NCBI GenBank assembly: GCA_902762355.1 | Contig: CACWNR010000016.1 | Coordinates: forward strand, 1 to 40,846 | DNA from: an uncultured Bacteroidales bacterium | GTDB lineage: Bacteria > Bacteroidota > Bacteroidia > Bacteroidales > Paludibacteraceae | Direction: 5' to 3' | Length of the DNA: 40,846 nucleotides | Shown: positions 5,299-36,342 of the stretch, in pieces | Layout: every line of letters begins with the position of its first letter | Numbering within the stretch: the first letter of the stretch is position 1 | Notes under the pieces: model-generated | What the model was told of the DNA's origin: nothing | The model's input: only the letters and a program-made list of their open reading frames with translations | Database searches by the model: none | Position numbers and translations under genes: made by a program

Positions 5299-5326
5299 AT
5301 TAAATTTTAAATTTGCAATCTTCAAT
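5299..5326. repeat. Heptamer junction repeat, imelysin / di-haem gene gap
   Basis: Four tandem degenerate heptamers, consensus nTTnAAT on the plus strand. They fill the 32-bp gap between the imelysin stop codon (5326-5328, whose first base is in the last unit) and the ATG of the next gene (5293). The fit is periodic but not exact. Confidence 0.6.
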
Positions 5327-6495
5327 CACTTCGACAGAAGTGGCAATACTTCATCGTCTAATAATCCTTCGAGGGCTTGCACTTTCTCCATCGCCGCTTT
5401 CACTTTCGGGTTACCCTGCGCGGTGTTCTCGAAGTCCTCAATTGCCTCAATAGCGGCGATCGCATCCTCTATCGCTTTGCGCACTTCGGCATCGAGTTCG
5501 GCGTCCTGGCGATAGATATAATTGGAGATCGAGTAGTCACCGGTTTGCGCACCGCAATAAGCGTGTTGGATCGAGCGGATGTTATCCGCAAAATCGATGG
5601 TGGAGGTACAGCTGTACGGGCTCTCGATATAATCGCGCTGCTCGGCAGTACTGCTGATATACGGGTTACCCATCTTCAGGTCGGCTACTTCACCGGCGAT
5701 GTCGATCGCACCGGCGATGATCTCTTCGGCTACATCCTGATAGCTCACATAGATCGAACCCGCTTTACCGGCGTTGATCATCTGCTCTCCGTAGTGATCT
5801 TCAAACGGCTCTATTTCTGCCTCTTCGAGCAGCGCCATCTTAGCCTCGCTGATCTCACCTGCCCACGCATACTCCAGCAGGATGGCCTGTTGAACGAGGT
5901 CCTCCACGATAGCATTCAGATAGACTGCTTCAGCGTGGGTGAGGTTGGTGGCATGGGGCTTGCCCGTACCTACCGCACGACCGTCTTGCATAACCGACTC
6001 AAACAGCAGGAACTCGCAGGCATGGAAGCCCTTGAGGGCATAGCCGAGCACATCGCCGACATAACGACCGCCATCCTCTTCCAACTGCGCCATGCGGACG
6101 GGGTCGTTGAGCAGCGCATTCATCTGGTTGAAATCCAACGGCCAACTGTCGATATGCGGGTCGATAGAGTGGTGAAAAGCCGGACCATAGAGGAAAGCCT
6201 CACTCTGCTCCCAGTACTTGCGCATCAGACGCCACGAAGCGTCCGCCTCCTTCATCAGATCCGTGTAGTCTTCACTCTTCTCCACTTTCTCGAGGATAGC
6301 GTTGGTCTGCTCCAAGAGCACCATTCCGGCATCTGCCATCGCGCTGTAGGTCGCTACAACCGTGTGATGTACATAAGGCGTTACCGCTTGTTGTAACGCC
6401 GCTTCTTTGTCCGTGGTGACATCAGTGCCACCTTTCTTCTCGCAGGCTACTAACGTCAGGGCAGCCAGCGCAACAAATAAAATCTTCTTTTTCAT
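5326..6495 (-). CDS. Imelysin-family lipoprotein (M75-like)
   Basis: A 389-residue lipoprotein with a lipobox at VAC (Cys18), probably facing the periplasm or surface. The imelysin signature GxHxxE appears as GFHACEFLLF near residue 160, and the helical composition fits the two four-helix bundles of the family. Family members (IrpA, ICMP and relatives) are linked to iron uptake; the old peptidase label M75 is doubtful because they lack a convincing catalytic site. It sits between an outer-membrane barrel gene and the di-haem lipoprotein, the classic imelysin/DHOR pairing. The gap to the downstream gene is filled by 7-bp repeats. Confidence 0.9.
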   Translation of the reverse strand: MKKKILFVALAALTLVACEKKGGTDVTTDKEAALQQAVTPYVHHTVVATYSAMADAGMVLLEQTNAILEKVEKSEDYTDLMKEADASWRLMRKYWEQSEAFLYGPAFHHSIDPHIDSWPLDFNQMNALLNDPVRMAQLEEDGGRYVGDVLGYALKGFHACEFLLFESVMQDGRAVGTGKPHATNLTHAEAVYLNAIVEDLVQQAILLEYAWAGEISEAKMALLEEAEIEPFEDHYGEQMINAGKAGSIYVSYQDVAEEIIAGAIDIAGEVADLKMGNPYISSTAEQRDYIESPYSCTSTIDFADNIRSIQHAYCGAQTGDYSISNYIYRQDAELDAEVRKAIEDAIAAIEAIEDFENTAQGNPKVKAAMEKVQALEGLLDDEVLPLLSK

Positions 6496-6510
6496 AATTC
6501 TTATTTTTTT

Positions 6511-6524
6511 ATTTATAATTTATA
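6511..6524. repeat. Short heptamer pair at the barrel / imelysin junction
   Basis: Two tandem copies of ATTTATA at the end of the barrel gene, covering its stop codon (6513-6515). They are followed by A+T-rich sequence up to the imelysin ATG (6495). Only two copies exist, so on its own this would be weak; it is listed because it fits the pattern at other junctions. Confidence 0.4.
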
Positions 6525-7970
6525 AAATCCAGCATAAACGATGCCCACTGCAAATTGCGGTTCGTCGTTATAGAGTTTGCCTTTCGTGCCGTCCGCGCGC
6601 GTACCTTGTTTCAAAATCCCGTACGAGAACTCGGCTTTCACACCGATCTGCTTGATGGGGAAGTAATTGATGCCCACTGCCGCCCGATGGCGACCGCACC
6701 AAGCGTACATATCTGTCGGTTGGTTGTCGTACAGGAACATCGAGTCGTAGTAATCGTACCGCGCGAAGAGATAAAACGCCTGTTTCTTCTCGACTAATTT
6801 CTTATTGAGCGAGAAGAAATCATAGCCCGCTTCAATACCTGCTGCAAGGGCATCGGATGCCACCCATTGTTTGCTACTCACCGAACCCTTACGCATGGAG
6901 ATGTTATACTGCGTGATCGCGGCGGCATCGCTCAAATGGCCGTATAGGAACGAACCGCGGGTAACGAAACCGTGTCCCTTGTACGCGAAGTCAAACCCAC
7001 TGATCGTGACCGTTCCTTTGACGTCTTTGTACGCACTCGCATCCAGTTCGGCGTTGGTCTTGCTCAGTGTGTTACGGAATGAATTGCCGCAATACCCGCT
7101 GAGGCTCAGCCGCAAACCCGGAACACCCGTGTAATCGACCCGTGCTGCACCGGCGAAGACGTTCGCCAACTTGAACTCGTACGGACTGCCCGCACCGGGT
7201 TTGATCCAGTTCTTACGATTGAAGCGGTCGCTGTCCAGACCGGGCAGGAACATCGCCTGGTAGTGCCAACCGTTGGGCGTCGAACCCATAAACGTGAGCG
7301 CCACCTCGTGCCAGGTGCTCGGGATAATAGTGAACTCACCTTCGTTACGATAGACCCCGAAATACTCTGTCGATTCGTGGTGAGCATTGAGGCCACCGAC
7401 GGGGATAACCTGCATGCCCGCGCGGATGATCGCATAGCGGTTGAACGCTTTCTGCAACCAGAACTGCTCCAGCGCCACTTCACCACCGCGTTCCACTTCC
7501 TGCTCGTACTCACCGCCTTCTTCTTCCTCTATCTCGATGGCCGATTCCGTACCGCCGTGCTCGAACTCGATCTCCGTGCCTACACTCCAGCCTTTGCCGA
7601 AGTCATAACCCATGTAGATCACCACATGCGGCAGGTCGAACTCACCGTAATGATCGTTCGCGTATTTCTCGGGGTTCTTGCCGTAACGAAGGTAGTTATT
7701 GGAGTACCAACAGTGCTTGGCCGTCACCTCGCCGTACCCGCCGATCGTGAATCGTCCACGTCTTGGCTCTTGTCTCTCGGCATTTGTCGGAGTGCTCGTA
7801 AGCACCTCTTGACTCCCAACTTGTTGGGATAGGCTGTCTTTTTGCTCCAACCGCTCCACGCGTTGTATAAGCGCCTGCAGATCCGCCGCGCTCACCTTAA
7901 TACTATCCTCTGCGCGTGCGCCTAATACGCATAAAATCAGCGAAATAGCTATGATTGTTTGTCTATACAT
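6513..7970 (-). CDS. Outer-membrane beta-barrel protein, porin-like
   Basis: A 485-residue exported protein with a signal peptide ending near ARAED. A short coiled-coil (about 27-55, ALIQRVERLEQKDSLSQQ) follows, then a barrel with alternating strands starting at RFTIGGYGEVTAKH. It resembles trimeric porins of the phosphate-selective/OprP type in layout (N-terminal coil plus barrel), but I cannot assign a substrate. An acidic loop lies near residues 150-165 (EIEEEEGGEYEQEVERGG), a plausible cation-attracting surface. ATG 7970 is preferred over a longer frame to 8033 because the promoter at 8002-8033 lies inside that extension. First gene of the imelysin / di-haem / Ccs run, divergent from the TonB receptor. 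Confidence 0.8.
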   Translation of the reverse strand: MYRQTIIAISLILCVLGARAEDSIKVSAADLQALIQRVERLEQKDSLSQQVGSQEVLTSTPTNAERQEPRRGRFTIGGYGEVTAKHCWYSNNYLRYGKNPEKYANDHYGEFDLPHVVIYMGYDFGKGWSVGTEIEFEHGGTESAIEIEEEEGGEYEQEVERGGEVALEQFWLQKAFNRYAIIRAGMQVIPVGGLNAHHESTEYFGVYRNEGEFTIIPSTWHEVALTFMGSTPNGWHYQAMFLPGLDSDRFNRKNWIKPGAGSPYEFKLANVFAGAARVDYTGVPGLRLSLSGYCGNSFRNTLSKTNAELDASAYKDVKGTVTISGFDFAYKGHGFVTRGSFLYGHLSDAAAITQYNISMRKGSVSSKQWVASDALAAGIEAGYDFFSLNKKLVEKKQAFYLFARYDYYDSMFLYDNQPTDMYAWCGRHRAAVGINYFPIKQIGVKAEFSYGILKQGTRADGTKGKLYNDEPQFAVGIVYAGFYKL

Positions 7971-8001
7971 ACTCGGTCTATACTCCTTTTTCAAACACAA
8001 C

Positions 8002-8033
8002 GCAAAATTACTATTTTTTCTTCTCCTGCACAA
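8002..8033 (-). promoter_or_regulatory. Promoter of the barrel-imelysin-di-haem-Ccs operon
   Basis: On the minus strand, TTG (8033-8031), a 20-nt spacer, then TAATTTTGC (8010-8002). It sets ATG 7970 as the start of the barrel gene. No separate regulator operator could be recognised here. Confidence 0.75.
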
Positions 8034-8064
8034 TACCCAATTTTAGGTAAAAATGACGAGATAT

Positions 8065-8096: not shown

Positions 8097-8119
8097 ACGC
8101 TTTTTCGAAGAAAAAAGGT

Positions 8120-10399: not shown

Positions 10400-10418
10400 A
10401 CTTTTTTTGCTCAAAAAC

Positions 10419-11780: not shown

Positions 11781-12258
11781 GACATATCAGCCGGGATGGG
11801 GTGAGAAACATCATCATCACCACCATCACTATGCAGGTCCCAACGAGAAGAACAGAGGTCTCGGTGGGGCTTTGCGTATGCGCGACAAGCAGGCGTACTA
11901 CGGACTGCTGTGTGTGTTGATCGCCGGACTCGCTTTCGGGGCATACAAACTGATTGGTATGTTCGCCGCTGAGTTACGCGCCATGCCGAACGATGACCCG
12001 ACCACAGAGATGACGGTGGACGAGTTGCGAATACACAAAGCCGACGAACAGGACGCTATTCTTATGGGGGACAGCCTCGCGCAGGAGTATAACGTGGATT
12101 CGATGAGACATCAGGTACAGATAGAAACCCGACCGGTCTATCGTCCGCCAAGACGCGAAGATAAATGGTACATCACGCAGTCTGAATGGAAGAAGATCTG
12201 GAAGAGTTATAAGATCTGGCGGTGGGAAAAGAAACGAGAAAAAGAGGAGCAGCAATGA
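11764..12258 (+). CDS. Small single-pass membrane protein with natural poly-histidine stretch
   Basis: Not recognised as a named family. The frame starts at GTG 11764, overlaps the end of ffh by 17 bp, and runs 164 residues to a stop that overlaps the folD ATG. Visible parts: a hydrophilic N-terminus with seven consecutive histidines at about residues 16-22 (GEKHHHHHHHYAG), one membrane helix (about 45-68, AYYGLLCVLIAGLAFGAYKL), an acidic stretch, and a very basic, tryptophan-rich end (WKKIWKSYKIWRWEKKREKE). The His stretch could bind metal; that is only inference. Its placement between ffh and folD argues for a real, translated gene. Confidence 0.7.
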   Translation: MEKDDKTYQPGWGEKHHHHHHHYAGPNEKNRGLGGALRMRDKQAYYGLLCVLIAGLAFGAYKLIGMFAAELRAMPNDDPTTEMTVDELRIHKADEQDAILMGDSLAQEYNVDSMRHQVQIETRPVYRPPRREDKWYITQSEWKKIWKSYKIWRWEKKREKEEQQ

Positions 12259-13163
12259 TATTAGACGGAAAAAAGATAGCTACGGAGATACGTGGCGAAC
12301 TGCGTACGCAGGTAGAAGCGCTCAAAGCAGCCGACAAGCGCGTGCCCAAATTAGGCATCGTGATCGTGGGCAATAACCCTGCGAGTGAGACGTATGTGAA
12401 CAACAAGATGAAGGCCTGTGCGGAAGTGGGTATCGAAGCGGTGAAGATCGCTTATCCGGCGGAGATCACCGAGCAGACCCTGCTCACAGAGGTGCATAAA
12501 CTCAATAACGACCCGTCTATTGACGGCTTCATCGTGCAACTGCCCCTGCCCGAACATATATCCGAGACCACTATCCTCTCGGCTATCGATCATCGCAAGG
12601 ATGTTGATGGTCTGACGCCGGAGAACGTGGGACGAACGGTACAGGGACTGCCTTCTATCATCAGCGCGACCCCGCGTGGTATACGTGAGTTGCTGGCGCG
12701 CTATAACATACAGACGGAAGGCAAACATGTGGTGGTGATCGGTCGGTCGAATATCGTCGGCAAACCGATGGCGATCCTGCTGATGCAGCGTCCGTACCTG
12801 AGTCTGCCGGGCATGAGTGCCGCTTCGTTGGGTGACGCGACGGTGACGATCTGTCATTCCAAGACGCGTGATCTGAAGTCCATCTGCCTGACGGCTGATA
12901 TCATCATCGTAGCTGCCGGCAGTCCGAATCTGCTGACGGCAGAGATGGTGCGCGAAGGCGCAACGGTTATCGATGTGGGTATCAACCGAATCGACGATCC
13001 CACATCACCACGCGGATACCGCTTGGTGGGCGACGTGGACTTCGAGCATGTGGCACCCAAAGCGGCGTATATCACGCCTGTGCCGGGTGGAGTAGGTCCG
13101 ATGACGATTGTAAGCCTTTTGCAGAATACACTGCAGGCTTACCAATTGAAGATTGAAGAATGA
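12255..13163 (+). CDS. folD: Methylene-THF dehydrogenase / methenyl-THF cyclohydrolase
   Basis: A 302-residue bifunctional cytoplasmic enzyme interconverting 5,10-methylene- and 10-formyl-tetrahydrofolate with NADP. Family features visible: SETYVNNKMKACAEVGI (catalytic Lys region), GFIVQLPLPEHI, KDVDGLTPENVG, the nucleotide-binding VVIGRSNIVGKPMAILL, and the closing TPVPGGVGPMTI. The start is ATG 12255, preceded by AGAGGAG and overlapping the upstream stop (ATGA); an in-frame extension to 12222 lies in the previous gene and is unlikely. Its last codons are part of a heptamer repeat that runs into prfA. Confidence 0.97.
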   Translation: MILDGKKIATEIRGELRTQVEALKAADKRVPKLGIVIVGNNPASETYVNNKMKACAEVGIEAVKIAYPAEITEQTLLTEVHKLNNDPSIDGFIVQLPLPEHISETTILSAIDHRKDVDGLTPENVGRTVQGLPSIISATPRGIRELLARYNIQTEGKHVVVIGRSNIVGKPMAILLMQRPYLSLPGMSAASLGDATVTICHSKTRDLKSICLTADIIIVAAGSPNLLTAEMVREGATVIDVGINRIDDPTSPRGYRLVGDVDFEHVAPKAAYITPVPGGVGPMTIVSLLQNTLQAYQLKIEE

Positions 13164-13165
13164 AT
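13145..13165. repeat. Heptamer repeat across the folD / prfA junction
   Basis: ATTGAAG twice, then the related AATGAAT, tandem. It codes for the last residues of FolD and contains the prfA ATG (13160-13162). An ATGA overlap and a heptamer repeat coincide here. Confidence 0.5.
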
Positions 13166-14227
13166 ATTTTAGATAAGATAGACGGATTAGAGGCGAAGTT
13201 CCATGAGGTGAGTCTGCTCATCACCGACCCGGCAGTCATTGCCGATCAGGCGCGGTACGTGCGGCTCAATCGGGAGTACCACGATCTGGAGCGCGTGCTC
13301 GTGGTGGCACGCAAGTACCGCCAGGCACTCGAGGATCTCAAAGAAGCCAAAGAGATCAATTACAAAGAGGCGATTGACGAACTCGAACCGCAGATTCCCA
13401 AGTTAGAGGAAGAACTGAAGCTGCAGATGCTGCCCCAAGATCCCGAGGACGGCAAGAACGTCGTCATGGAGATCCGTGGCGGTACAGGTGGTGACGAGGC
13501 GGCTATCTTCGCCGGCGATCTGTTCCGTATGTACACCAAGTATTTCGAACTCAAGGGCTTCAAATATTCCGTTTCTTCGTTCAATGAAGGTGCAGCCGGC
13601 GGTTATAAGGAGATCATCTTCAACGTGACCGGTCAGAACGTCTATGGTACGCTCAAATACGAATCGGGTGTGCACCGTGTGCAGCGTGTGCCGGTGACGG
13701 AGACGCAAGGACGTGTCCATACCTCGGCGGCAACCGTGGCTGTTCTGCCCGAAGCGGATGAGTTCGAGGTGCATATCAACGAAGGCGAGATCAAGTGGGA
13801 GACCTTCCGTTCGGGTGGTGCAGGCGGACAGAACGTGAACAAAGTAGAGTCGGGTGTACGGCTTCGTTATAACTGGAAGAACCCTAATACGGGTGAGGTG
13901 CAGGAGATATTGATTGAGTGTACGGAGACGCGTGACCAGCCAAAGAACAAAGAGCGTGCTCTCTCGCGCCTGCGTACGCAGATCTATGATAAGGAGCACC
14001 AGAAATATATCGACGACATCGCGGCACGCCGTAAAACCATGGTCTCGACGGGTGACCGCAGTGCGAAGATACGTACCTACAACTACCCGCAGGGACGTAT
14101 CACCGACCATCGTATCGGATATACCGTCTATAACCTCGCGGCGTTCATGGACGGCGATATACAAGGAGTCATCGATGCGCTGCAAGTAGCAGAGAACGCA
14201 GAGCGACTCAAAGAATCGGAACTATAA
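13160..14227 (+). CDS. prfA: Peptide chain release factor 1
   Basis: A 355-residue cytoplasmic factor that reads UAA/UAG and triggers peptide release. The tripeptide anticodon region is of the RF1 kind (RVPVTETQGRVHTS, the PxT motif), not the SPF of RF2. The catalytic GGQ lies in FRSGGAGGQNVNKVESGVRL, and the C-terminal half matches the family closely. The length is normal. Its ATG overlaps the folD stop and its TAA overlaps the rsmE ATG (TAATG), so expression is probably coupled along the chain. Confidence 0.97.
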   Translation: MNILDKIDGLEAKFHEVSLLITDPAVIADQARYVRLNREYHDLERVLVVARKYRQALEDLKEAKEINYKEAIDELEPQIPKLEEELKLQMLPQDPEDGKNVVMEIRGGTGGDEAAIFAGDLFRMYTKYFELKGFKYSVSSFNEGAAGGYKEIIFNVTGQNVYGTLKYESGVHRVQRVPVTETQGRVHTSAATVAVLPEADEFEVHINEGEIKWETFRSGGAGGQNVNKVESGVRLRYNWKNPNTGEVQEILIECTETRDQPKNKERALSRLRTQIYDKEHQKYIDDIAARRKTMVSTGDRSAKIRTYNYPQGRITDHRIGYTVYNLAAFMDGDIQGVIDALQVAENAERLKESEL

Positions 14228-15820: not shown

Positions 15821-17053
15821 GTGCCGAACAACGCCGAATTGAAAATAGCAACGAAACTTTATTTCTCCCAAGAGGGAGAAGCGCGTCATGCACGACCGGC
15901 TATCCGGGTGGCGTTGGCGGGTATGATCGTGGGCGTGATGGTGATGATCCTGACCATCTGTATTGTGGTGGGATTCAAGCAAACCGTCACGCAGCAGGTC
16001 GCCGGTTTCGGGGCACATATACAGTTGGTTTCGTTCGATAACAACAACACCTACGACATGCAACCTATTCCGGTTTCGGATTCGTTGCTAGCGCGTCTGG
16101 AGGCGTACGAACACGTGGTGTCTGCCGCACCGTTCATCACCAAACCCGGAATGCTCAAGACCGAAACGGCTTTTCAGGGCATCGTACTGAAAGGAACGGA
16201 GTATTGGGACTTTTTTGCCAAGAACATTGTGGAAGGACAACTGCCGCAATCACCCCAAGAGGTGCTGATTTCTCGCATGGCAGCGCAGCAGATGGGGCTG
16301 TCGGTGGGGGACGGCGTGAACGCGTATTTCGTGGACGAGAGCGATGTACGGGCACGACGCTTGAAGATAGTGGGCATCTATAACACCGGATTTGAGCAGT
16401 TTGATGAACTGTTTGTGGTGACCCCTCTGGAGACCGTACGGCGTTTGCAAGGATGGGAAACGAATGTGTATTCGGGTGTGGAGATATTGGTGGACGATAT
16501 CGCGATGATTGACGAGGTGGCGGATAAGATCTATTTTGCAACGGTCAATCATCTGGACGAGGACGGTTATCACGTGTATTACGTGCAGACGCTGAGAGAA
16601 CAGAATCCTGCTATCTTTGCTTGGCTCGATCTGCTCGATATGAACGTCATTGTGATTATCGTGCTGATGCTCCTCGTGGCAGGCTTCAATATCGTAAGTG
16701 GCCTGATCATCCTGATTCTGGATGGCGTCCAACTGATCGGAACATTGAAAGCCTTAGGTGCAGATAATCGGTTCGTACAGCGTATCTTCCTCGCGCAAGC
16801 CGCGCTGCTGATCGGCAAAGGTGTGCTGTGGGGCAATATACTCGGTTTAGGGCTGGCAACGTTGCAATATTTCACGCATCTGGTGCCCCTCGAGGCGGCC
16901 ACTTATTACGTGGATCATGTACCGGTAGCTTTTGCCTGGGGATGGATCGTGGCGCTGAATATACTGACCATCGGCATCTCGCTGCTGATTCTGTTGTTGC
17001 CGTCGATGATCATCACCAAGATCAGTCCGGCGAAAGTAATGCATTTTGAGTAA
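15821..17053 (+). CDS. ABC transporter permease, LolC/LolE-like (FtsX domain)
   Basis: A 410-residue inner-membrane protein in the layout of lipoprotein-release permeases: one N-terminal helix (about 29-52), a large periplasmic domain, then three C-terminal helices (about 268-300, 320-345, 370-395) of the FtsX domain. The motif between them (ILDGVQLIGTLKALGADNRFVQRIFLAQ) is the typical coupling region that meets the ATPase. No ATP-binding subunit is encoded nearby, so it must come from elsewhere. The start appears to be GTG 15821, since the next ATG falls inside the first helix. I found no consensus promoter in the 25-bp gap to the divergent Spy-like gene. Confidence 0.88.
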   Translation: MPNNAELKIATKLYFSQEGEARHARPAIRVALAGMIVGVMVMILTICIVVGFKQTVTQQVAGFGAHIQLVSFDNNNTYDMQPIPVSDSLLARLEAYEHVVSAAPFITKPGMLKTETAFQGIVLKGTEYWDFFAKNIVEGQLPQSPQEVLISRMAAQQMGLSVGDGVNAYFVDESDVRARRLKIVGIYNTGFEQFDELFVVTPLETVRRLQGWETNVYSGVEILVDDIAMIDEVADKIYFATVNHLDEDGYHVYYVQTLREQNPAIFAWLDLLDMNVIVIIVLMLLVAGFNIVSGLIILILDGVQLIGTLKALGADNRFVQRIFLAQAALLIGKGVLWGNILGLGLATLQYFTHLVPLEAATYYVDHVPVAFAWGWIVALNILTIGISLLILLLPSMIITKISPAKVMHFE

Positions 17054-17054
17054 G

Positions 17055-17861
17055 ATGAAGCTACAGACGATCGTGGACATAGCGCCTTCCGCATGGAAGA
17101 TCGGGTACGAGGATAAAATCCTCATGCTGGGTTCGTGTTTCTCGGACGAGATAGGCGAACAGATGCAGCAACGCTACCTGAACGTCACCTGCAATCCTTT
17201 CGGTACACTCTATAACCCGCTCTCTATTGCACAAGCGCTACAAATGACCGAAGTTCCGGAGCTTATCGAACACGAGGGTTTATGGCACTCGATGGCGCAT
17301 CATGGTGCTTTCTCGCGGGCATCTCGCGAAGAGGCAGAGCAAGCGGTGCGTGGCTCAATAGAGACGATGCAGCAGGCCATCCAAGAGGCAACGGTCGTTA
17401 TTGTCACCTTCGGTACGGCCTGGGTGTATGAGCAAGACGGCGCGGTTGTGGGCAACTGTCATAAACTGCCGGAGAGTTGTTTTACGCGAAGACGTCTGAC
17501 GGTAGAAGAGATAGTGGCTGCATGGCAACCGATTCTGGCGCAGTATCCTGATAAACACTGGCTCTTTACTGTCTCGCCTATTCGTCATATACGGGACGGA
17601 TTGCATGAGAACCAGTTGAGCAAAGCGACCTTGCTGCAGGCCGTGGAGCAGTTAGGCGATTACTTCCCAAGCTATGAAATCGTCTTGGACGAGTTGCGTG
17701 ATTATCGTTTTTATGCGGATGATCTGGTGCATCCGTCGTCTATGGCGGTCAATTATATATGGGAGCGGTTTGTGGATTGTTTCTGTACGAATCAGACAAA
17801 AAATGAACTCGTGCTCCAACATAAGCGTTGGAAACACGAGCATCATCGATTATTGCACTAA
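17055..17861 (+). CDS. GSCFA domain protein, SGNH-like
   Basis: A 268-residue protein of the GSCFA family, named for the motif seen here as LGSCFSDEIG. Further family blocks: CNPFGTLYNPLSIAQAL, TFGTAWVYE, NCHKLP, SPIRHIRDG and DDLVHPS. The first Ser and the last Asp/His fit an SGNH-hydrolase-type triad, so an esterase or acyl/acetyl hydrolase activity is plausible, but the family's substrate is not established. No signal peptide, so probably cytoplasmic. ATG 17055 begins one base after the stop of the LolE-like gene; a TTG three codons upstream is a weaker choice. Convergent with valS, with an 18-bp gap made of heptamer repeats. Confidence 0.9.
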   Translation: MKLQTIVDIAPSAWKIGYEDKILMLGSCFSDEIGEQMQQRYLNVTCNPFGTLYNPLSIAQALQMTEVPELIEHEGLWHSMAHHGAFSRASREEAEQAVRGSIETMQQAIQEATVVIVTFGTAWVYEQDGAVVGNCHKLPESCFTRRRLTVEEIVAAWQPILAQYPDKHWLFTVSPIRHIRDGLHENQLSKATLLQAVEQLGDYFPSYEIVLDELRDYRFYADDLVHPSSMAVNYIWERFVDCFCTNQTKNELVLQHKRWKHEHHRLLH

Positions 17862-17889
17862 GAATTCAGAATTCAGATTTCAGACTTTT
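17862..17889. repeat. Heptamer repeat between GSCFA gene and valS (convergent)
   Basis: GAATTCA twice, GATTTCA, then GACTTTT, in tandem from the base after the GSCFA stop into the end of valS. The valS stop (17880-17882) is made from the repeat. This is the only clear heptamer junction between convergent genes. Confidence 0.6.
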
Positions 17890-20501: not shown

Positions 20502-20532
20502 ATATCGTATTGTTATTTTCGCAAAAACGGCT

Positions 20533-20564
20533 GCAAAGGTACGATTTTTTTTGCATATATGCAA
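20533..20564 (-). promoter_or_regulatory. Promoter of valS
   Basis: Minus strand: TTG (20564-20562), 20 nt, TACCTTTGC (20541-20533). The -33 element is one arm of the palindrome TTTGCATATATGCAAA (20550-20565), whose other arm is the -33 element of cdd. Confidence 0.8.
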
Positions 20565-21108: not shown

Positions 21109-21122
21109 AGCCCTGAAGGGAC

Positions 21123-21150
21123 ATTGGATATTGGAGATTTGAGATTTATA
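21123..21150. repeat. Heptamer repeat over the lptF/G start
   Basis: Four tandem heptamers, consensus ATTnGAn, from just after cdd into the first codons of the permease gene. The likely TTG start (21124) lies inside the first unit. Confidence 0.6.
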
Positions 21151-22671: not shown

Positions 22672-23851
22672 GGATCGCGAGAACGAAGGTGATTTCATCA
22701 TCGCTGCGGAGAAGATCACACCGGAGAAAGTCAATTTCATGCTCCAACACGGGCGTGGTGTGTTGTGCTGTCCGATCACGGAGACACGCTGTGCGCAGTT
22801 GGATCTGATGCATCAGGTGACGAACAACACCTCGATGCTCGGTACGCCGTTCACGGTGACGGTCGATAAGCTCGAGGGCTGTACCACCGGTGTCTCGGCA
22901 GCCGATCGTGCGGCTACGATCCTGGCGCTGGCTGACCCGAACTCTAAACCGGAGACTTTTGGTCGTCCGGGACATATCAACCCGCTCTATGCGCGCTCAG
23001 GAGGTGTGCTCCAGCGGGCAGGACACACCGAGGCTGGTGTGGACTTGGCACGTTTGGCAGGTTTTCAACCGGCAGCAGCACTCATTGAAATCATGAATGA
23101 GGACGGCACGATGGCGCGTATGCCGCAGTTACAACAGGTGGCGCAGGAGTTTGACCTCAAGATCATCACCATCAAAGACTTGATAGCTTACCGGCTGGAG
23201 AAAGGGGATAGGGCAGAGGACGCTTCGCTACAGGACGGCATTCTGCCTATAGGTCATAGCCTTATTGAGAAAGGCGAAACGGTCTTTCTGCCCACGCAGA
23301 ACGGGGAGTTTATGTTGACACCCTTCCGTGATCTGACGACGGGTCTGGAGCATGTGGTGTTGACCAAAGGTGAATGGAAAGAAGACGAACCCATCCTCTG
23401 TCGGGTGCACTCCAGTTGTATGACGGGCGATATCTTCGGATCCAAGCGCTGCGAGTGCGGCGAGCAGTTGAACAAAGCCATGCAGATGATCGAGGCCGAG
23501 GGCAAGGGTATCATCGTTTATATGAATCAGGAGGGTCGCGGGATTGGTTTGATGAATAAGATACGCGCGTATAAGCTCCAGGAGCAGGGCGATGACACGG
23601 TGGAGGCGAATATTCATTTAGGTTTCCGTCCGGACGAACGTGACTATGGCGTGGGCGCACAGATACTTCGCGAGATGGGGGCACTCAAACTACGTTTGAT
23701 GACCAATAATCCCGTCAAGCGGGTAGGCTTGGAGAGTTACGGTATAGAGATCGTGGAGAACGTACCGATTGAGATCCAACCGAACCGTTGGAACGAACGC
23801 TACATGCGCACCAAAAAAGAAAAAATGCACCATGATCTGAAACTCGTATAG
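22598..23851 (+). CDS. ribBA: Bifunctional DHBP synthase / GTP cyclohydrolase II
   Basis: A 417-residue cytoplasmic enzyme supplying both precursors of riboflavin. The N-terminal half (1-200) is 3,4-dihydroxy-2-butanone-4-phosphate synthase: [18 protein letters not shown] acidic loop and [14 protein letters not shown]. The C-terminal half is GTP cyclohydrolase II: zinc cysteines in [18 protein letters not shown], the catalytic [13 protein letters not shown] block, and [16 protein letters not shown]. The start is ATG 22598, where [13 protein letters not shown] begins family homology. No FMN riboswitch was seen upstream, which is expected inside an operon. ribF for the last steps lies about 7 kb away. 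Confidence 0.97.
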
Positions 23852-23855
23852 TCTT

Positions 23856-23871
23856 TGGCACGGTATTTGAA
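23856..23871 (+). promoter_or_regulatory. Possible sigma-54 type promoter
   Basis: TGGCACGGTATTTGAA matches the sigma-54 -24/-12 consensus (TGGCAC, 5 nt, TTGCA/T) with one mismatch at the -12 GC. It lies 35 bp before the ATG of the Ser/Thr/Arg-rich secreted protein, just after the ribBA stop, and no standard TAnnTTTG promoter is visible there. A single motif match; tentative. Confidence 0.3.
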
Positions 23872-23905
23872 TGATCTTTGGTGAACCCTTTAAAATTAAA
23901 TTGTT

Positions 23906-25222
23906 ATGAAAAAATTAACTACACTTCTGATGACGCTGATGCTGATGGCGACGGCGTTGTGGGCGGAAGAGACCATAACGGTTTCCGCTAAGAGTACTGA
24001 CATCTCGGAAGGACTCGATCTGAAGGTGGTAGCTAAACTGTTCGCAGAGGCTAAGAACCTGGAAGAGTTCGAGACGATGCTCAACAATCCGGACAGCGCG
24101 TTCTGTAACTTAGACTTGAACGGCGACGGACAAGTAGATTACCTGCGTGTCGTAGAGACGGGCGAAGGCAACAAGCGTCTGATCGTATTACAAGCGGTTC
24201 TGGCGAAGGATATCTTCCAAGATGTGGCCTCGATATATGTCGAGAAAGACGAGAACAACGAGGTTTCTGTTCAGGTAGTCGGCGACGAGTATGTGTACGG
24301 TGAGAACTACGTAATAGAGCCGGTATATGTTTTCAGACCTGTTATCTACGATTGGTTCTGGAGCGACGCATGGTATGCTTGGACGAGTCCTTGGTACTGG
24401 GGATACTACCCCGGTTGGTGGTACGCACACAGTTGCTGGGCACATGACTGGTATTGGCATCACTGCTATGCCTATCATCACCACCACTACTGCTGCTCTT
24501 TCCGCCACGGACATCATCCCCGTAACGGATACCACGAGATGCATCAGAGTGTAGCGCGTAGGGACTACGCCGTAGCTTATCCCGATCGTTCGTTCACACG
24601 CCGTAACAGCGGCATGACCAACGCACGCGAGATACGCGGTACAACCCGTACAACCGCTACAGCACGCGTAGCAGGCGAAGCCACACGTAGTACGACACGC
24701 AGCACGTTCGGTAGCACGACACGTACAGCGAGTCCTACAGCAGCGACAGCAACCCGCTCTACGGGTTCGACTAGAACAACGGCGACGACAACCAGACCGA
24801 CCAGTACGGCAACTACCACCCGTTCAACCGGTAGCACACGCTCTACAAGCAGTACCACCGCAAGCACAACGCGTAGCACGGGTACATCAACGCGCAGCAC
24901 GGGTACATCAACGCGCAGCACAAGTACAACCACCCGTTCAACCGGTAGCACGCGCTCTACGAGTACGACGACAGCTAGTTCTTCCAGATCAACCGGTTCG
25001 ACCCGTTCAACGGGCAGCACCTATAGCAGCGGTTCCCGCACGAGTAGCTCGAGTAGCACCCGCAGCAGCGGAAGTACGTATAGCGGTGGCGGTCGTAGCA
25101 GCGGAAGTACCTATAGCGGAGGCGGTCGCAGTAGCGGAGGTGGCACATACAGCGGCGGCGGTGGCCGTAGCAGCGGAGGTTCAGCTCCTTCCGGTGGTGG
25201 AGGCGGCGGAAGACGCAGATAA
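23906..25222 (+). CDS. Secreted protein with Ser/Thr/Arg-repeat and Gly-rich tail
   Basis: 438 residues, function unknown. A signal peptide (ending TALWAEE) is followed by a folded-looking domain to about 155 with an EF-hand-like DLNGDGQVDYLRVVE. A very aromatic, His-rich patch (about 150-205, WTSPWYWGYYPGWWYAHSCW) follows, then about 180 residues of low-complexity repeats of the type TRSTGSTRST, and a final Ser/Gly-rich tail (YSGGGRSSGG) ending in arginines. The repeat DNA contains recent duplications, including an exact 21-bp one (24880-24921). The basic Ser/Thr region suggests a surface- or wall-interacting stalk; this is inference. The gene ends in a strong terminator shared with aspA. 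Confidence 0.85.
   Translation: MKKLTTLLMTLMLMATALWAEETITVSAKSTDISEGLDLKVVAKLFAEAKNLEEFETMLNNPDSAFCNLDLNGDGQVDYLRVVETGEGNKRLIVLQAVLAKDIFQDVASIYVEKDENNEVSVQVVGDEYVYGENYVIEPVYVFRPVIYDWFWSDAWYAWTSPWYWGYYPGWWYAHSCWAHDWYWHHCYAYHHHHYCCSFRHGHHPRNGYHEMHQSVARRDYAVAYPDRSFTRRNSGMTNAREIRGTTRTTATARVAGEATRSTTRSTFGSTTRTASPTAATATRSTGSTRTTATTTRPTSTATTTRSTGSTRSTSSTTASTTRSTGTSTRSTGTSTRSTSTTTRSTGSTRSTSTTTASSSRSTGSTRSTGSTYSSGSRTSSSSSTRSSGSTYSGGGRSSGSTYSGGGRSSGGGTYSGGGGRSSGGSAPSGGGGGGRRR
24880..24921 (+). repeat. Exact 21-bp tandem duplication in the STR-rich gene
   Basis: Two identical 21-bp units (24880-24900 and 24901-24921) encoding GTSTRST twice. The unit is a multiple of three, so copy changes keep the frame. 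Flanking sequence (about 24815-24845 and 24930-24960) is a second, longer near-copy. Confidence 0.85.
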
Positions 25223-26643: not shown

Positions 26644-26652
26644 AGTATATGA

Positions 26653-27612: not shown

Positions 27613-27680
27613 ATCTATAATCTATCATCTATCATCTATAATCTATCATCTATAATCTATAATCTATAATCTATAATCTT
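27613..27680. repeat. Nine-copy heptamer repeat, glycosyltransferase / ftsY junction
   Basis: Nine tandem units of ATCTAT(A/C) plus a partial tenth. They begin directly next to the ftsY ATG (27612) and reach into the end of the glycosyltransferase gene, where they supply its last codons and TAG stop (27664-27666). The most regular of the junction repeats. Confidence 0.95.
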
Positions 27681-31540: not shown

Positions 31541-32972
31541 TTCCTTCTCCCACGCGCTTAATGCCGTTCCGATCTGTATCATAAGGTACAGCCACGAGAC
31601 TGTCACCTATACCCCGCGCCGGACTCAAACTGTCCAGCCGGAAATCGTAATACACGTATTCCTTGTACTTATAGTAGTTATTGACGAAGATCTTCGCCGT
31701 GTCTTGACTGATATAATTGCCCACAAACTCACCCGGGTAGTATTTCTCCAGCGGCGTAGCGACCACCAGTTGGTCGGACAGATAGCCGGTGATGATGCAG
31801 TTGTAGAACGAGGTTTGGGTGGTGGGTTCTTTCTTGCTGAGGTTATTGATATACACCGCCGCCACGTTCTCTTTGCTCACGGACTGAATGCGGATGTTCG
31901 TGAAGCCGAAATAGGAGGCCACCGTCGTGTGCACGAAGTCATGCTTACCGCCGTCGCAATACACGCAGTACGACGCGCAGTTACTGATCTCGGTGTTGGT
32001 CACGAGGGCATCGATATGATTGAGAACCAACCCGTAGAGCGTGTGGTTATGAATACGGCAACCGTCCATGCGCAGGGTCGGCAGCACGTCCGTGCCCTCG
32101 CTGTAGCACGACAGTCCCACGTTTCCCGACAGGATGTCCACGTACTCCAGCTGATAGGTCTGCGGTTTCTCGGCTTGCAGATAGATGCCGTTCCAGCTAC
32201 CGCCGGCATAGGCGTAAGGTACGGAGTCGAAGAGTCGGTCTAAGCGGTCACCGCGGATGATGATCGGTTGTGCCGGCGTACCGATGGCGGTGAGGTCACC
32301 TAAGGCCACTATGCATGCACCTTGGTGCATGAACAGCCGTGCACCGGCATTGATCGTGACGGCATCGCCGAAGATAAGGGTATCGAAGATAATATACGGT
32401 AGGTCAGCCGTGAAGGTGTAAGGAGTGGTGATCTCCGTGCGTTGACACCCTACGTGTCCAATCCGAACAGCGTTCTGCGCATAGGCTTCCAAGACTACGT
32501 CTTGATTCGCTCCGTTGGCCAGATGGAAAGACAGTATATCGTCCGTCAACACGGCATCGTTACCGCCCACCTTTCCGAAATCCGTCACGCGCACGAAGAC
32601 TTGCATACTGTCCCCGCCGTAGATCGTGAGGTCGTGCAGTCTGGATAGATCCGCTTCGCCATCGATATTCACCTTAAACACCGCCCCCTTGGCCAGCGAG
32701 ACGTTTTGAATCACCAGCGCCTGTTTATTGCGGTTATAGACCTTCAGTTGCATCGTAGCACTACCTTGCTCGCTGAACACTGTATCGAAGCGTAGGGTGT
32801 CCACGGAGAACGATAACCGCATCGACGGATCGTCACTCACTTGGTACTCGCGACAAGTTGAAAGACCAAGTACTAAGAACAAAAGACCAATCGTCTTACA
32901 GCGAAGCGATCTTACAGCGTAAGCGGTCTTGGTCAGACCTGAAAGCGGTCTTTCAGCGAAGCGGTCTTTCAT
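31503..32972 (-). CDS. Lipoprotein with right-handed beta-helix-like repeats
   Basis: A 489-residue exported lipoprotein; hydrophobic LLFLVLGLSTC gives the lipobox. An immunoglobulin-like N-terminal region (LRFDTVFSEQGSATMQLKVYNRNKQALVIQN, in two blocks) precedes a right-handed parallel beta-helix of stacked turns (MDGCRIHNHTLYGLVLNHID, NTEISNCASYCVYCDG) and the common ending KPDAGCYQYQP. Function unknown; such proteins often bind polysaccharide. The remarkable part is the first ~25 residues (KDRFAERPLSGL onward): they are the translation of four 16-mer repeats (32896-32966). ATG 32972 is the only good start before the signal core, starting 1 bp after the upstream stop. Confidence 0.85.
   Translation of the reverse strand: MKDRFAERPLSGLTKTAYAVRSLRCKTIGLLFLVLGLSTCREYQVSDDPSMRLSFSVDTLRFDTVFSEQGSATMQLKVYNRNKQALVIQNVSLAKGAVFKVNIDGEADLSRLHDLTIYGGDSMQVFVRVTDFGKVGGNDAVLTDDILSFHLANGANQDVVLEAYAQNAVRIGHVGCQRTEITTPYTFTADLPYIIFDTLIFGDAVTINAGARLFMHQGACIVALGDLTAIGTPAQPIIIRGDRLDRLFDSVPYAYAGGSWNGIYLQAEKPQTYQLEYVDILSGNVGLSCYSEGTDVLPTLRMDGCRIHNHTLYGLVLNHIDALVTNTEISNCASYCVYCDGGKHDFVHTTVASYFGFTNIRIQSVSKENVAAVYINNLSKKEPTTQTSFYNCIITGYLSDQLVVATPLEKYYPGEFVGNYISQDTAKIFVNNYYKYKEYVYYDFRLDSLSPARGIGDSLVAVPYDTDRNGIKRVGEGIKPDAGCYQYQP
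32896..32966. repeat. 16-mer repeat array encoding a signal-peptide n-region
   Basis: Four tandem units of 16, 17, 22 and 16 bp based on TTACAGCGAAGCGGTC (plus strand), lying just downstream of the lipoprotein ATG and translated. The third unit carries an inserted GGTCAGACC-type inverted repeat. Confidence 0.85.
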
Positions 32973-32973
32973 T

Positions 32974-33720
32974 TTATTCAAAGTTAAACGTGAGGCAGAT
33001 ACTATGATTGGTGAGCCGCGAAATGGAGTTCGAATAGAACGCATCTTGCGGGGCTAACTCCATCCGCTTGTCGGCAGGGTAGAGTTGGTTCGCAAAACCG
33101 ATGCGGTACGTGATCTCCGGACAGAACTTAAACCACCGGAAATAGAGGTCCACACCAAAGCCCACTTCGGCGAAATAGTCCATCAGATTCATCAGCACGG
33201 GTTTCTCGCGGTCACGACTCACATTGAAGCTCGCACCGCCACCGGCAATCACGTACGGACGGTAATTCCCCTCGCGCATCGCGGAGAATTTCAGATAGAG
33301 CGGCAGATAAACCGGCATCGCCAGCACATCGACCGATGCTCCTTTGCCCATCGAGCCCTTCACGGGGTTACCGCTCTCGGTCTTGTAACTGAGGGTGCGG
33401 CTGGTGAACTGCATACCCGGACAGAAACGCAGATTGAGGTATTTGCACAGACGCAGGTCGGTGATGAAGCCTACATGAAAACCCGGCAGCACACTGCTCA
33501 CGCGGGAGTGATAGATCTCTTTGATGCCCGTGATCGGATCCTCGATCTCTAACTCACTGTCCGTCACACCGAAACTGGAGAAGTTCACACCCAACTGAAA
33601 GCCGAAGTGGAAGAGTTTATCGTCCACGTACGGCCTGTTCTGCGACTCCTGTGCCATTACCGGAACAAAGAGCAAGGAACAAAGCGCAAGGGTTAATATG
33701 ATCCTATAACCTTTCACCAT
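32974..33720 (-). CDS. PorT-like outer-membrane beta-barrel protein
   Basis: A 248-residue exported barrel. A signal peptide (ending VPVMAQ) is followed by DDKLFHFGFQLGVNFSSFGV, an opening typical of PorT/SprT, an outer-membrane accessory of the type IX secretion system. Regular strands follow, ending in an aromatic-terminated CLTFNFE. Generic Bacteroidota porin-like barrels look similar, and no other type IX genes are in the window, so the specific role is uncertain. The ATG (33720) lies inside a heptamer repeat with several overlapping ATG-GTG possibilities. Downstream the lipoprotein gene begins 1 bp after the stop. Confidence 0.75.
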   Translation of the reverse strand: MVKGYRIILTLALCSLLFVPVMAQESQNRPYVDDKLFHFGFQLGVNFSSFGVTDSELEIEDPITGIKEIYHSRVSSVLPGFHVGFITDLRLCKYLNLRFCPGMQFTSRTLSYKTESGNPVKGSMGKGASVDVLAMPVYLPLYLKFSAMREGNYRPYVIAGGGASFNVSRDREKPVLMNLMDYFAEVGFGVDLYFRWFKFCPEITYRIGFANQLYPADKRMELAPQDAFYSNSISRLTNHSICLTFNFE

Positions 33721-33754
33721 TCACCATTCACCTTTCACCATTCACCATTCACCT
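33713..33754. repeat. Six-copy heptamer repeat forming the leader and start of the PorT-like gene
   Basis: Six tandem units TTCACC(A/T). On the coding strand these read GGTGAA(T/A), so they repeatedly present an AAAGGTGA ribosome-binding-like stretch and an ATG. The true ATG (33720-33718) is inside. The array begins directly next to the stop of the upstream gene (33755-33757). Confidence 0.92.
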
Positions 33755-36304
33755 TTAATAGTCCGTATTACTGTTTCCACTATCGTCGAAGTCATCGCTA
33801 CCGCCACTCATGTCGCCATCCTGACGACCGCGACGACGACCTTGCTGGTTACCGAAGTTATAGGTGACTGTGAAACTGATGCTACGGCTGTGCCATCTGT
33901 TCTCGCTGAACTGCCAGAAACCGTCACCCCAGGTGGTGTTACGCCGTGCGCGCGAATCCAAAATATCGCGTACATTAAGCGCCAGCGCGAGCTGTTTGTT
34001 GAGCAGCGTATAACGCAGACCGATATCGATCGAGTAGCTATGACTCGTCGTTCCTTGCGCTACCACACGCGGTGAACGGTACGCACCGGTGAGCTGACCG
34101 CTGAAGTTCTTCGTGAACAGGAACTGCGCGTTGATACGCACCGAACCCGCGAAGATATTCTGTCCCGCCAGATGAACGGGGATCGTGTCGCCTAAGTGGT
34201 AGATGTCTTCGTCCACCTTGGAGATGTTGTTCCAATAGAAATTAGCACTGGTCGTCAGCTGAAGCAACTCGCCGAACAGGCGGTTCTTAGCCACCACTTC
34301 CACACCTAACTCCTGACGCGTTGAGACGTTGAGGTAGGTGTTCTTCATCACGTTGCCGTCCATGTACTTGACGTTCTGCACCGCTCCCTCGTTGTACTTC
34401 CAGAACACACCGGCACTCAGCGTATGACGCTCCCAGGTCTTGAGGTAATTCAACTCGAGGTTATTGGAGTAGGAGGGCAGCAAGTCCACGTTACCGTAAC
34501 TGATGTTCGTGCTATCGGAAAAGTCCATACGCGGGTTGATCTGGTGTCCCCACGGACGACGAACGCGGCGTGTGTAGTTGAGTTGTAACTCATGGCCGTT
34601 ACCGAAGTCATAACTGATATACGCACTCGGGTAGATCTGGAAATACGCCGTGTCTTTCTTGTGCTCCATGCCGGCGTAGGAGTCTTGGATAGCGCCTGTG
34701 CCGTCTTTGTAGTACGAGTTCAGATGGCGCATGTAGTACTCGCCGCGCAGACCGACTTGGATGGATAACTTATTCCAGAAACGGTTACCGTACGTGATAT
34801 AAAGCGCGTGGTTCTGGTTGAGTCCGTCGAACTGCGCGAAGTACTCATTCAGTTCGCTTAGATGATTACCGTCAGCATCGGTGTTGAACGCGTTGGCCGA
34901 ACTGGTGTTCCAGTTGCGTGTGTAGTCATATCCGGCTTCCAGACGACTCTGCTGCGTCGGTTTCCACTCGTAGTCGGCTTTGATCTCGATGCCCTGATCC
35001 TTGCTCTCGCTGTTCTGGTTCTGATAGAGCGTCGTCTTGCCGATCTCCGTCTGCGTGTAGTCGGTGTACATATTAAAACCGAAGTGGTTGTACGTACCGC
35101 TCACATACAACTTATGATCGTCCATCTCGAAGGTGTAATCGAGTGTCGCATTACCGCCCGGGTGACTGCCTGTAGCGGACTGATCACGCGTGTAGGTGCG
35201 GTTATTGGCGCTGTTCAGATAGTCGGAGAAGGTGTAGGTGCGTTGGGTAGAGTTACTCATCTTGAATACCTTCGGATCGCTCACCATACCAAAACCGGAG
35301 ATACCGATCGTGTGACCTTGTGCTACATGGAAATTGAGTCCGCCACGACCAAACATACCACCGCCGCGGTGGTTCTGCTGACCTTCTTGGATCAAGTGAC
35401 TCATGATAAGACTCGAGTCCAGTTTCTCGCTTCCCATGCCACTCAGGTTATAACGGTTCGTCTCGCTACCACCGTTGCTCACGTGATAACGATAACCGAG
35501 GTTGAAATAACCATCTACGATGCCGGCATTGAAATTGATGCTGAAGCTCGCATTGGCTCCGGGCGGTACGTTCCATGGCTTCGCCAAAGAGTAGTTGATA
35601 CCGGCTTGAACGGAACCGTAATAACCCGCCTGACGGTCTTTTTTCATCACGAGGTTGATGATACCGGACGTTCCTTCGGGAGAGAATTTCGCACTCGGGT
35701 TCGTGATCAGCTCGATTTTCTCGATCGTGCCCGCAGGCATCTGTTGCAGCACCTGTGCGCGGTTCTCGCTGTTCAGACCCGCAGGCTTGCCGTTGATCCA
35801 GATCTCCACATCGTCGCTGTTACGTAAAGAGATATTACCTTCCTGATCCACATCGACGGACGGGATATTCTCCAACACATCGGTCACACTCGCACCGGCA
35901 GATGCGATGTTCTGATCCACCGTGAACACTTTCTTGTCCAACTCAAAACGCATGGACGAGCCTTGACCGACTACCTCCACGTCTTGCAGCATCTTGGAGT
36001 CTTCTCGCAGCGCGATACGGCCGACGTTCACCGGTTTACCGGCTACGGTCAGTTCTTTTCTCACATCCGTATAGCCCATGAACGAAACAGCAAGCGTGTA
36101 CTTGCCGTCCTTGACTTCCAGACGGAACTCACCTTTCTCGTCGGTCACCACGCCCGTGATGACTTGGTCACCGGCCATGACGCTCACGTTCGCAAAATCA
36201 ATCGCTTGCTTCGTTCCCGCGTCAATAACCTTTCCTGTCACCTCTGCCGCAAATGAACTAATCGTTATCGCTAACAGTGCAACGATGGAGAATATTCGCC
36301 TCAT
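33755..36304 (-). CDS. TonB receptor-like outer-membrane beta-barrel protein
   Basis: An 849-residue outer-membrane protein. A signal peptide (ending SFAAE) is followed by a carboxypeptidase-regulatory-like domain (about 20-95, GKVIDAGTKQAIDFANVSVM), a plug-like part (about 110-225, DVLENIPSVDVDQEGNISLR and IELITNPSAKFSPEGTSGII) and a long barrel. It belongs to the Bacteroidota outer-membrane barrel family related to TonB receptors, with no SusD partner nearby. It ends in YNFGNQQ and then an unusual charged tail (RRRGRQDGDMSGGSDDFDD) beyond the barrel. Substrate unknown. Gaps on both sides are heptamer repeats. Confidence 0.9.
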   Translation of the reverse strand: MRRIFSIVALLAITISSFAAEVTGKVIDAGTKQAIDFANVSVMAGDQVITGVVTDEKGEFRLEVKDGKYTLAVSFMGYTDVRKELTVAGKPVNVGRIALREDSKMLQDVEVVGQGSSMRFELDKKVFTVDQNIASAGASVTDVLENIPSVDVDQEGNISLRNSDDVEIWINGKPAGLNSENRAQVLQQMPAGTIEKIELITNPSAKFSPEGTSGIINLVMKKDRQAGYYGSVQAGINYSLAKPWNVPPGANASFSINFNAGIVDGYFNLGYRYHVSNGGSETNRYNLSGMGSEKLDSSLIMSHLIQEGQQNHRGGGMFGRGGLNFHVAQGHTIGISGFGMVSDPKVFKMSNSTQRTYTFSDYLNSANNRTYTRDQSATGSHPGGNATLDYTFEMDDHKLYVSGTYNHFGFNMYTDYTQTEIGKTTLYQNQNSESKDQGIEIKADYEWKPTQQSRLEAGYDYTRNWNTSSANAFNTDADGNHLSELNEYFAQFDGLNQNHALYITYGNRFWNKLSIQVGLRGEYYMRHLNSYYKDGTGAIQDSYAGMEHKKDTAYFQIYPSAYISYDFGNGHELQLNYTRRVRRPWGHQINPRMDFSDSTNISYGNVDLLPSYSNNLELNYLKTWERHTLSAGVFWKYNEGAVQNVKYMDGNVMKNTYLNVSTRQELGVEVVAKNRLFGELLQLTTSANFYWNNISKVDEDIYHLGDTIPVHLAGQNIFAGSVRINAQFLFTKNFSGQLTGAYRSPRVVAQGTTSHSYSIDIGLRYTLLNKQLALALNVRDILDSRARRNTTWGDGFWQFSENRWHSRSISFTVTYNFGNQQGRRRGRQDGDMSGGSDDFDDSGNSNTDY

Positions 36305-36307
36305 AAA

Positions 36308-36342
36308 AAATCTAAAATCTTAAATCTAAAATCATCAATTAT
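36308..36342. repeat. Heptamer repeat, aroQ / outer-membrane gene junction
   Basis: Three AAATCT(A/T) units, then AAATCAT and CAATTAT, in tandem. They fill the gap from the receptor ATG (36304) into the aroQ stop (36335-36337) and its last codons. Confidence 0.8.

Follow-up and report, generated by a model that had tools for sequence, protein, structure and literature searches.

Tandem heptamer arrays in gene gaps and enzyme loops of an uncultured Bacteroidales bacterium and its congeners

Heptamer arrays in the window

The window analyzed here is contig C16, a stretch of 40,846 nt from an uncultured Bacteroidales bacterium near Paludibacteraceae, whose metagenome-assembled genome (MAG) comprises 1.94 Mb in 36 contigs and is about 76% complete. 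In an FtsY comparison, the nearest named loci were MAGs of uncultured Bacteroidales and Paludibacteraceae, many of them named after ruminant gut sites. Short tandem arrays of degenerate 7-bp units (heptamer arrays) lie at many gene junctions of this window. Such arrays are flanked by ordinary genes (HlyIII, imelysin, release factor, class I tRNA synthetase, LptF/G, RibBA, FtsY, dehydroquinase, Rho and TonB-dependent receptor). A first-pass annotation had listed nine arrays and described them as operon-internal. We compared the lag-7 score of each junction with dinucleotide shuffles and also obtained a P value for any lag from 4 to 10. Heptamers were found at all nine coordinates, and eight of the nine exceeded the shuffles at lag 7 (P ≤ 0.004). 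The array at the gap 6496-6512 was weak, and the short array at 22586 (P = 0.004 at lag 7) was marginal when any lag was allowed (P = 0.020). A tenth array, inside the HlyIII gene, had been overlooked. The arrays are listed below.

1647-1677, minus strand: (ATTTGTG)x4.4 array, in frame in the HlyIII-family gene 1142-1771, encoding the loop SQITNHKSQI
5295-5314, minus strand: heptamer array, located in the gap that separates the DHOR gene (3692-5293) from the imelysin gene (5326-6495); score reached by 0 of 1000 shuffles
6511-6525, minus strand: weak two-copy heptamer over the 3' end of the open reading frame (ORF) 6513-8033; P = 0.031, or 0.216 for any lag from 4 to 10
13145-13168, plus strand: ATTGAAG array that spans, within coding DNA, the 4 bases shared by a tetrahydrofolate dehydrogenase/cyclohydrolase gene (12222-13163) and a PCRF/RF-1 release factor gene (13160-14227)
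17861-17884, no strand assigned: GAATTCA array in the convergent gap between a GSCFA gene (17046-17861, plus) and a class I (valyl-type) tRNA synthetase gene (17880-20564, minus)
21121-21148, plus strand: ATTGGAT/ATTGGAG/ATTTGAG array at the junction from cytidine deaminase to an lptF/G-like gene; also in the congener locus L052
22586-22600, plus strand: two GAATTAN units up to the ribBA start, within the still-open lptF/G-like ORF; marginal
27613-27679, minus strand: ATCTATA/ATCTATC array of 9.6 units, extending from within the glycosyltransferase gene's 3' end to the ftsY ATG
33709-33756, minus strand: TTCACCA/TTCACCT array between a TonB-dependent-receptor-like gene (33755-36304) and an OMP_b-brl_2 gene (ORF 32974-33720), the listed ATG of which falls within the array
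36307-36333, minus strand: AAAATCT array between a dehydroquinase gene (36335-36781) and the TonB-dependent-receptor-like gene; also in L052, one base apart

The description of the junctions as operon-internal does not hold, as 17862 is convergent. The array at 13145 lies in overlapping coding DNA. At 22586, the lptF/G-like ORF is open to 22671, so the TAA there is not its stop codon.

Period, placement and turnover of the arrays

The preference for period 7 was evident well beyond the window. We counted exact lag runs of at least 10 in 840,846 bases of the same genome (the window and 40 stretches of 20 kb, 43% of the genome). There were 71 lag-7 runs, compared with 0, 0, 9, 5, 7, 0 and 10 at lags 4, 5, 6, 8, 9, 10 and 11. 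In 400 kb of the congener G005, 62 lag-7 runs stood against 1, 1, 0, 2, 7, 2 and 8 at the same lags. The lag-7 excess was thus present on 841 kb of the 1.94 Mb, and its absence, which the first-pass annotation had named as the refuting outcome, was not observed. That the process is keyed to the period rather than to one sequence is supported by the excess in this genome and in its congeners.

A larger gap set, which added five congeners and more of the window's own genome, provided 219 kb of co-directional and convergent gaps and 60.9 kb of divergent gaps. The genes were called by a simple purpose-made caller, so the class boundaries are approximate; the null was a first-order Markov model for gaps and a single replicate for genes. 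In the 219 kb, arrays of about two, three and more copies numbered 135, 107 and 40 for unit 7 (null 37, 0.6 and 0), 44, 15 and 3 for unit 8 (null 10, 0.4 and 0), 17, 11 and 2 for unit 11 (null 1, 0 and 0), and 14, 5 and 0 for unit 9. Units of 4-6 nt showed no excess there, being at or below the null. The excess therefore ranks 7, then the side peaks 8, 11 and 9. The 11-nt units, the second and smaller excess, showed no depletion in divergent gaps (30 in 219 kb vs. 9 in 61 kb). Inside genes, the two longer classes held 72 + 23 arrays of unit 7 (null 1), compared with 4 + 1 for unit 9 and 0 + 1 for unit 12; unit 6 gave 29 + 0 (null 12), and its rise was mostly of doublets (919 vs. 498).

Twenty-two other Bacteroidales-type loci (327 kb) held 7 lag-7 runs (5 at lag 6, 8 at lag 9), and 395 kb from 12 other families of the order held 8, five of them from one genome. 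Of 395 Bacteroidota genomes, 4 contained an exact 20-mer, GGTGATT x2.9. When the genus was scanned with a degenerate heptamer pattern, 109 of its 122 genomes matched; the backward control of this pattern was high in a few genomes (13 vs. 99 in G139, 102 vs. 98 in G091), so it gauges one unit style only. Overall, the phenomenon is real, genus-wide and strongly 7-specific, and it extends further than the first-pass annotation had supposed, to convergent gaps and genes.

To describe placement, we used 117 arrays from 1.43 Mb (441 kb of the same genome and 58 congener loci). Sixty-six were co-directional, 13 convergent, 1 divergent and 29 coding (coding flanks on both sides), with 8 unclassified at ends. 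The coding share is understated, because 7 of the 66 co-directional arrays, including the HlyIII array, sit deep inside a called gene. Array density per base was about 35-fold higher in co-directional gaps than in genes, given the crude gene calls. Divergent gaps held 1 array in 30,313 bases, compared with 66 in 77,242 co-directional bases (25-fold, p = 1e-8). In the larger set, the contrast was 5-fold (8 longer arrays in 60,879 divergent bases vs. 147 in 218,962 co-directional and convergent bases, p = 1e-8). Divergent gaps had been said to lack arrays; they are depleted, 5- to 25-fold, but not empty. Convergent gaps (13 arrays in 17,695 bases) were as rich as co-directional gaps (p = 0.77), and arrays also occur in frame within genes. 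The claim that the process acts on the place is not borne out by these two findings, and the place seems instead to be what selection tolerates. The placement rule is fewer arrays in promoter gaps, not an operon-internal location.

The position relative to stop codons was also less uniform than first described. An upstream stop could be placed for 62 of the 66 co-directional arrays; of these, 20 overlapped the end of the upstream gene, 22 began 1-21 bases past it, and 20 were further off. The arrays had no strand polarity with respect to transcription; of the 66 co-directional arrays, 32 had more G than C, 26 more C than G and 8 equal numbers. The unit contained a stop in the sense direction in 40 of 66 and in the antisense direction in 33 of 66, compared with a rate of 0.335 for gap 7-mers. 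Hairpin avoidance was considered and rejected, as the folding energy of the repeats (-4.40) equaled that of letter-shuffled units (-4.35).

Turnover at orthologous sites was fast. We compared nine non-divergent junctions close to ftsY and ribBA: 37 of their 160 orthologous gaps (window included) had lag-7 arrays, and these 37 carried 31 junction-specific units; congeners mostly had other units or none. In the same 160 gaps, the control lags 5, 6, 9 and 10 reached the score in 3 and lag 8 in 20, of which 11 were at one junction. Two divergent orthologous gaps had arrays in 0 of 6 sequences, one gap being represented by the window alone. The locus L052, about 89-91% identical to the window, has the arrays of 21121 and 36307, is without those of 27613 and 33709, and carries one at 36770 that the window does not have. 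At the junction 23851-23906, period 8 scored in 11 of 28 orthologous gaps and period 7 in 2, so 7 is not universal. Adjacent arrays were in phase in 59 of 67 cases, a result of little weight, as mutated units of a single array largely give the same. The longest entry of the 117-array list is a 271-base mixed TGAAAGG/TGAAAAC array in a congener (L078, 9697-9967).

Arrays inside proteins and shared units

The coding arrays encode short peptides (SPITNHQ, KVKGER, SNIKYQISN) in apparent loops or linkers of conserved enzymes, and several lie in genes that look like housekeeping genes by sequence (PrmC-, RibBA-, RibD- and UvrA-like, no search made). We followed three such loops across the genus. Among 121 genomes, 57 had an HlyIII match, and 30 loci were taken from these. 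Ten of the 30 had lag-7 arrays, and none of the 30 had an array at lags 5, 6 or 8-11. Direct measurement gave a constant loop length in 23, and the same length held for 3 others, in which the anchor had matched ten residues upstream; two loops were 4 residues shorter, one was 6 shorter and one was mis-anchored. For PrmC, 30 loci were taken from the 80 genomes with a match among 81. Eleven had arrays, of 7 units, and 7 of these 11 had the usual loop length of 13 residues. The position-wise identity of these array loops between species averaged 0.64 (minimum 0.33), compared with 75% within arrays at lag 7; two of the seven, from the window's genome and G005, were identical. Among the TrmH-like orthologs (24 of 30 anchored), 9 had arrays, of 9 units, and four of these loops had 18 residues. 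The TrmH-like loop of the window's genome has 25 residues, matching the gain expected from three units. In the PrmC and HlyIII loops, arrays with differing units are thus seen while the length of the loop stays the same. The excess in genes of longer 7-nt arrays over 9- and 12-nt arrays, which could arise by slippage with the frame kept, favors a length-neutral rewriting component besides plain slippage.

The inter-domain linker of RibBA (window 22598-23851 and orthologs) ranged from 24 to 38 residues across species and contained heptamer arrays with species-differing units, 16-bp repeats or other repeat-like text. From these sequences, it looks as if the linker were a landing place for repeats. 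The 16-bp repeat, TACAGCGAAGCGGTCT, occurs in the window at 36788-36851 and 32897-32967 (5 matches with at most 3 mismatches, 0.33 expected). Similar text was seen in the RibBA linkers of L057 and L074, and 6 of 335 loci contained the 14-base core of the repeat. It is a second filler family besides the heptamers. The window also contains a 45-bp repeat of 3.2 copies within the rho gene (38011-38154) and 33/36-bp repeats (25061-25177) within the ORF 23906-25222.

The units themselves were biased and partly shared. Of the 117 units, 88 had one strand free of C or of G, compared with 62 expected for their G+C, and the cores TGATT, GGTGA, GATTT and TGAAA were enriched; a shared TGA/GATT/GGTGA core is real. 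In the window's genome alone, 37 arrays gave 18 identical unit pairs vs. 1.3 expected. Across six species, three of which were sampled around matches to the degenerate pattern, there were 232 within-species identical pairs, compared with a label-permutation mean of 104 and a maximum of 147 in 3000. Three blindly sampled, de-clustered species gave 127 vs. 88 (p = 0.0002). A set of 37 small congener loci, however, did not show units to be shared more often within a species than between species (5/225 vs. 168/6704, p = 0.58). We also counted matches of two units, several per array, in 122 genomes. TTTCAAC and CAAATTT matched 32 and 0 times in G087, 21 and 0 in G111, 5 and 16 in G033, and 12 and 26 in G073.

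We considered whether the HlyIII-loop unit follows the dialect of its genome. The result was negative in G025, where the genome (83% complete) matched the loop unit CAAATTT twice, both times in the loop itself. The 11 TTTCAAC matches in G126 are merely consistent with the proposal. The first-pass annotation had stated that the unit differs at each site and had suggested that no single mobile sequence is involved. Units do mostly differ between orthologous junctions, and the second statement holds, but sharing exceeds chance within and between genomes.

Origin of the arrays

We hold with a probability of roughly 0.6 that the arrays are the product of a DNA-level copying habit in replication or repair which favors steps of about 7 nt, and that they are filtered by selection and probably without function. 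They look like the outcome of such a habit and not like a genetic switch. The growing strand would re-pair about seven bases away and then copy the neighboring unit. Such re-pairing may often add units; sometimes the strand would copy and then return, so that a stretch turns periodic with its length unchanged. Some arrays may also be templated from arrays elsewhere, as the partial sharing of units within genomes suggests. The annotation had offered a replication or repair habit and the tuning of translational coupling as possible roles, and the former fits best, given the period preference, the lack of polarity and the turnover. Since the argument rests on these three, our confidence is unaffected by the weaker depletion of divergent gaps in the larger set. 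A stronger version, in which a length-neutral out-and-back reaction with a reach of seven nt keeps rewriting tolerant DNA, enzyme loops included, and swaps units in place, is a tentative proposal that we hold to be possible but doubtful. If it is true, fixed-length protein loops are repeatedly overwritten with new sequence.

Several observations weigh against the copying habit. Slippage alone accounts neither for the shared units (119 identical pairs among the 117 arrays, orthologous arrays included, compared with 10.6 expected from gap 7-mers) nor for the genome-level unit preferences. Four of 30 PrmC loops and four of 24 TrmH loops also attained the score at control lags. Concerted change at fixed length was clear only in PrmC (10 of 21 pairs), compared with 2 of 10 pairs in HlyIII and 0 of 1 in TrmH, where the anchors recovered the loops only partly. 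Finally, the copying habit gives no reason for a step of seven in particular.

One alternative is that the arrays form a dispersed family. Its units would travel in trans, through ectopic gene conversion or through template switching from one array to another, and every genome would in this way come to have a dialect of its own. The within-species pairs above permutation, the genome-specific counts of TTTCAAC and CAAATTT and the length-neutral replacement argue for it; the lack of same-species excess in the 37 small loci, the unmatched loop unit of G025 and the sampling of three of the six species around pattern matches argue against it. Spread in trans is likely for some arrays, but not in general, and we consider it rather unlikely as the account of the whole. 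Another proposal is that the arrays tune the translation or coupling of genes adjacent in an operon, perhaps by providing every frame with stop or start codons. Although 42 of the 62 arrays cover the upstream stop or lie no more than 21 bases from it, and stops in units exceed the gap rate, antisense stops are nearly equal to sense stops, convergent gaps are as dense, arrays occur inside genes, and 123 of the 160 orthologous junction gaps have no array. With no strand polarity and with arrays where nothing is coupled, this role is quite improbable.

Candidate enzymes were compared between nine array-rich and nine array-poor genomes, chosen by counts of the degenerate pattern. An RNA-templated or transposase-like writer, such as a reverse transcriptase or a RAYT (REP-associated tyrosine transposase), would fit species-specific units. 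RVT_1 (reverse transcriptase) was present in 1 of the 18 incomplete genomes, one of the nine rich ones, and Y1_Tnp in 4, two rich and two poor and thus unrelated to array richness. Such a writer is very improbable and is largely refuted for these two families, the ones tested. Loss of mismatch repair raises slippage at tandem repeats in general, and the array-rich G069 had only a partial, weaker MutS_V match. MutS_V was nevertheless matched in all 18 genomes, at 271-281 bits in 17 and thus at full strength in 8 of the 9 rich ones; the gaps showed no excess of 4-6 nt units, and none of the 33 arrays listed for the window had a period of 1-6. This explanation is hardly credible. Chance or low-complexity composition could account for the gap 6496-6512, but the dinucleotide shuffles and the neighboring lags make it negligible for the arrays at large. 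With MutS_V matched throughout, RVT_1 rare and Y1_Tnp unrelated to array richness, the common replication and repair machinery would remain as the source of the copying habit.

Relation to known repeats

Short tandemly repeated repetitive (STRR) heptamers of heterocystous cyanobacteria comprise several heptamer units, and the arrays described here are like them in this respect, by description and not by sequence. A passage of PMC4692102 mentions three such units in Calothrix. The SPADE survey, in the part that concerns heptamers, ranks them first in abundance among the intergenic tandem repeats of prokaryotes, gives them no known function and records their prevalence as unexplained (PMC6344855). 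Passages of PMC4679880 and PMC4692102 name Mrazek 2007 as the source of the proposal that slippage occurs at a 7-nt polymerase contact. Our arrays resemble the prokaryotic heptameric simple sequence repeats in that period 7 is over-represented relative to other periods and the 117-array set is mainly intergenic. They differ in that they were followed here at orthologous sites of congeners and showed turnover of units, in-frame length-neutral arrays, and side peaks at 8 and 11.

The repeats GGGAATC and GGGGA(C/T)T, which a section of PMC4692102 presents from Xanthomonas and Nostoc, have period 7, occur genome-wide near ORFs of random gene classes, are under-represented between divergent genes and vary among close relatives. 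Their unit is G-rich and quadruplex-forming, whereas the arrays here have many, mostly A+T-rich units, and only 9 of 313 carried GGG or CCC in the main unit. The TAACTGA repeats are described in part of PMC4679880 from marine Beggiatoaceae, Cyanobacteria and five Bacteroidetes including Paludibacter, with two sets in Paludibacter propionicigenes. They share the period, the short gaps and the frequent position just before start codons. According to the same part, they have one favored unit, mostly forward before starts in BOGUAY, whereas the arrays here have no strand bias, are equally rich in convergent gaps, occur in genes, and carried TAACTGA in 0 of 313 cases. The tandem repeats of Borg elements, as outlined in a portion of PMC9879509, are fast-evolving, independently formed, and located both between and within ORFs; Borgs are huge archaeal extrachromosomal elements, and their repeats are likened to the arrays here by description only. 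A passage of PMC6749651 notes satellite families that are specific to species, among them a heptamer family in Chloroflexus, and suggests a possible transposition mechanism. In phase-variation contingency loci, the length of a tract switches surface genes on or off within a population; several of the coding arrays here lie in the housekeeping-like genes named above. Miniature inverted-repeat transposable elements (MITEs) and repetitive extragenic palindromes (REPs) have a conserved sequence with a matching transposase; here there was no conserved sequence, and Y1_Tnp, the transposase family examined, was unassociated.

Among the listed titles and abstract openings of openly licensed literature, we found no description of junction-filling heptamers in Bacteroidales, and nothing was found in that literature on Paludibacteraceae with tandem repeats. 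These arrays are a caution against taking such gap repeats for regulatory signals. Their turnover at junctions and in enzyme loops allows the period to be told apart from the sequence, and changes of length from changes of sequence, and a genus with more than 100 genomes of different species, in which the unit is free and the period nearly fixed, makes the question of why seven testable. The abundance of heptamers was already known; what is new is the unit-free turnover across a genus, the in-frame length-neutral arrays and the partial genome dialects.

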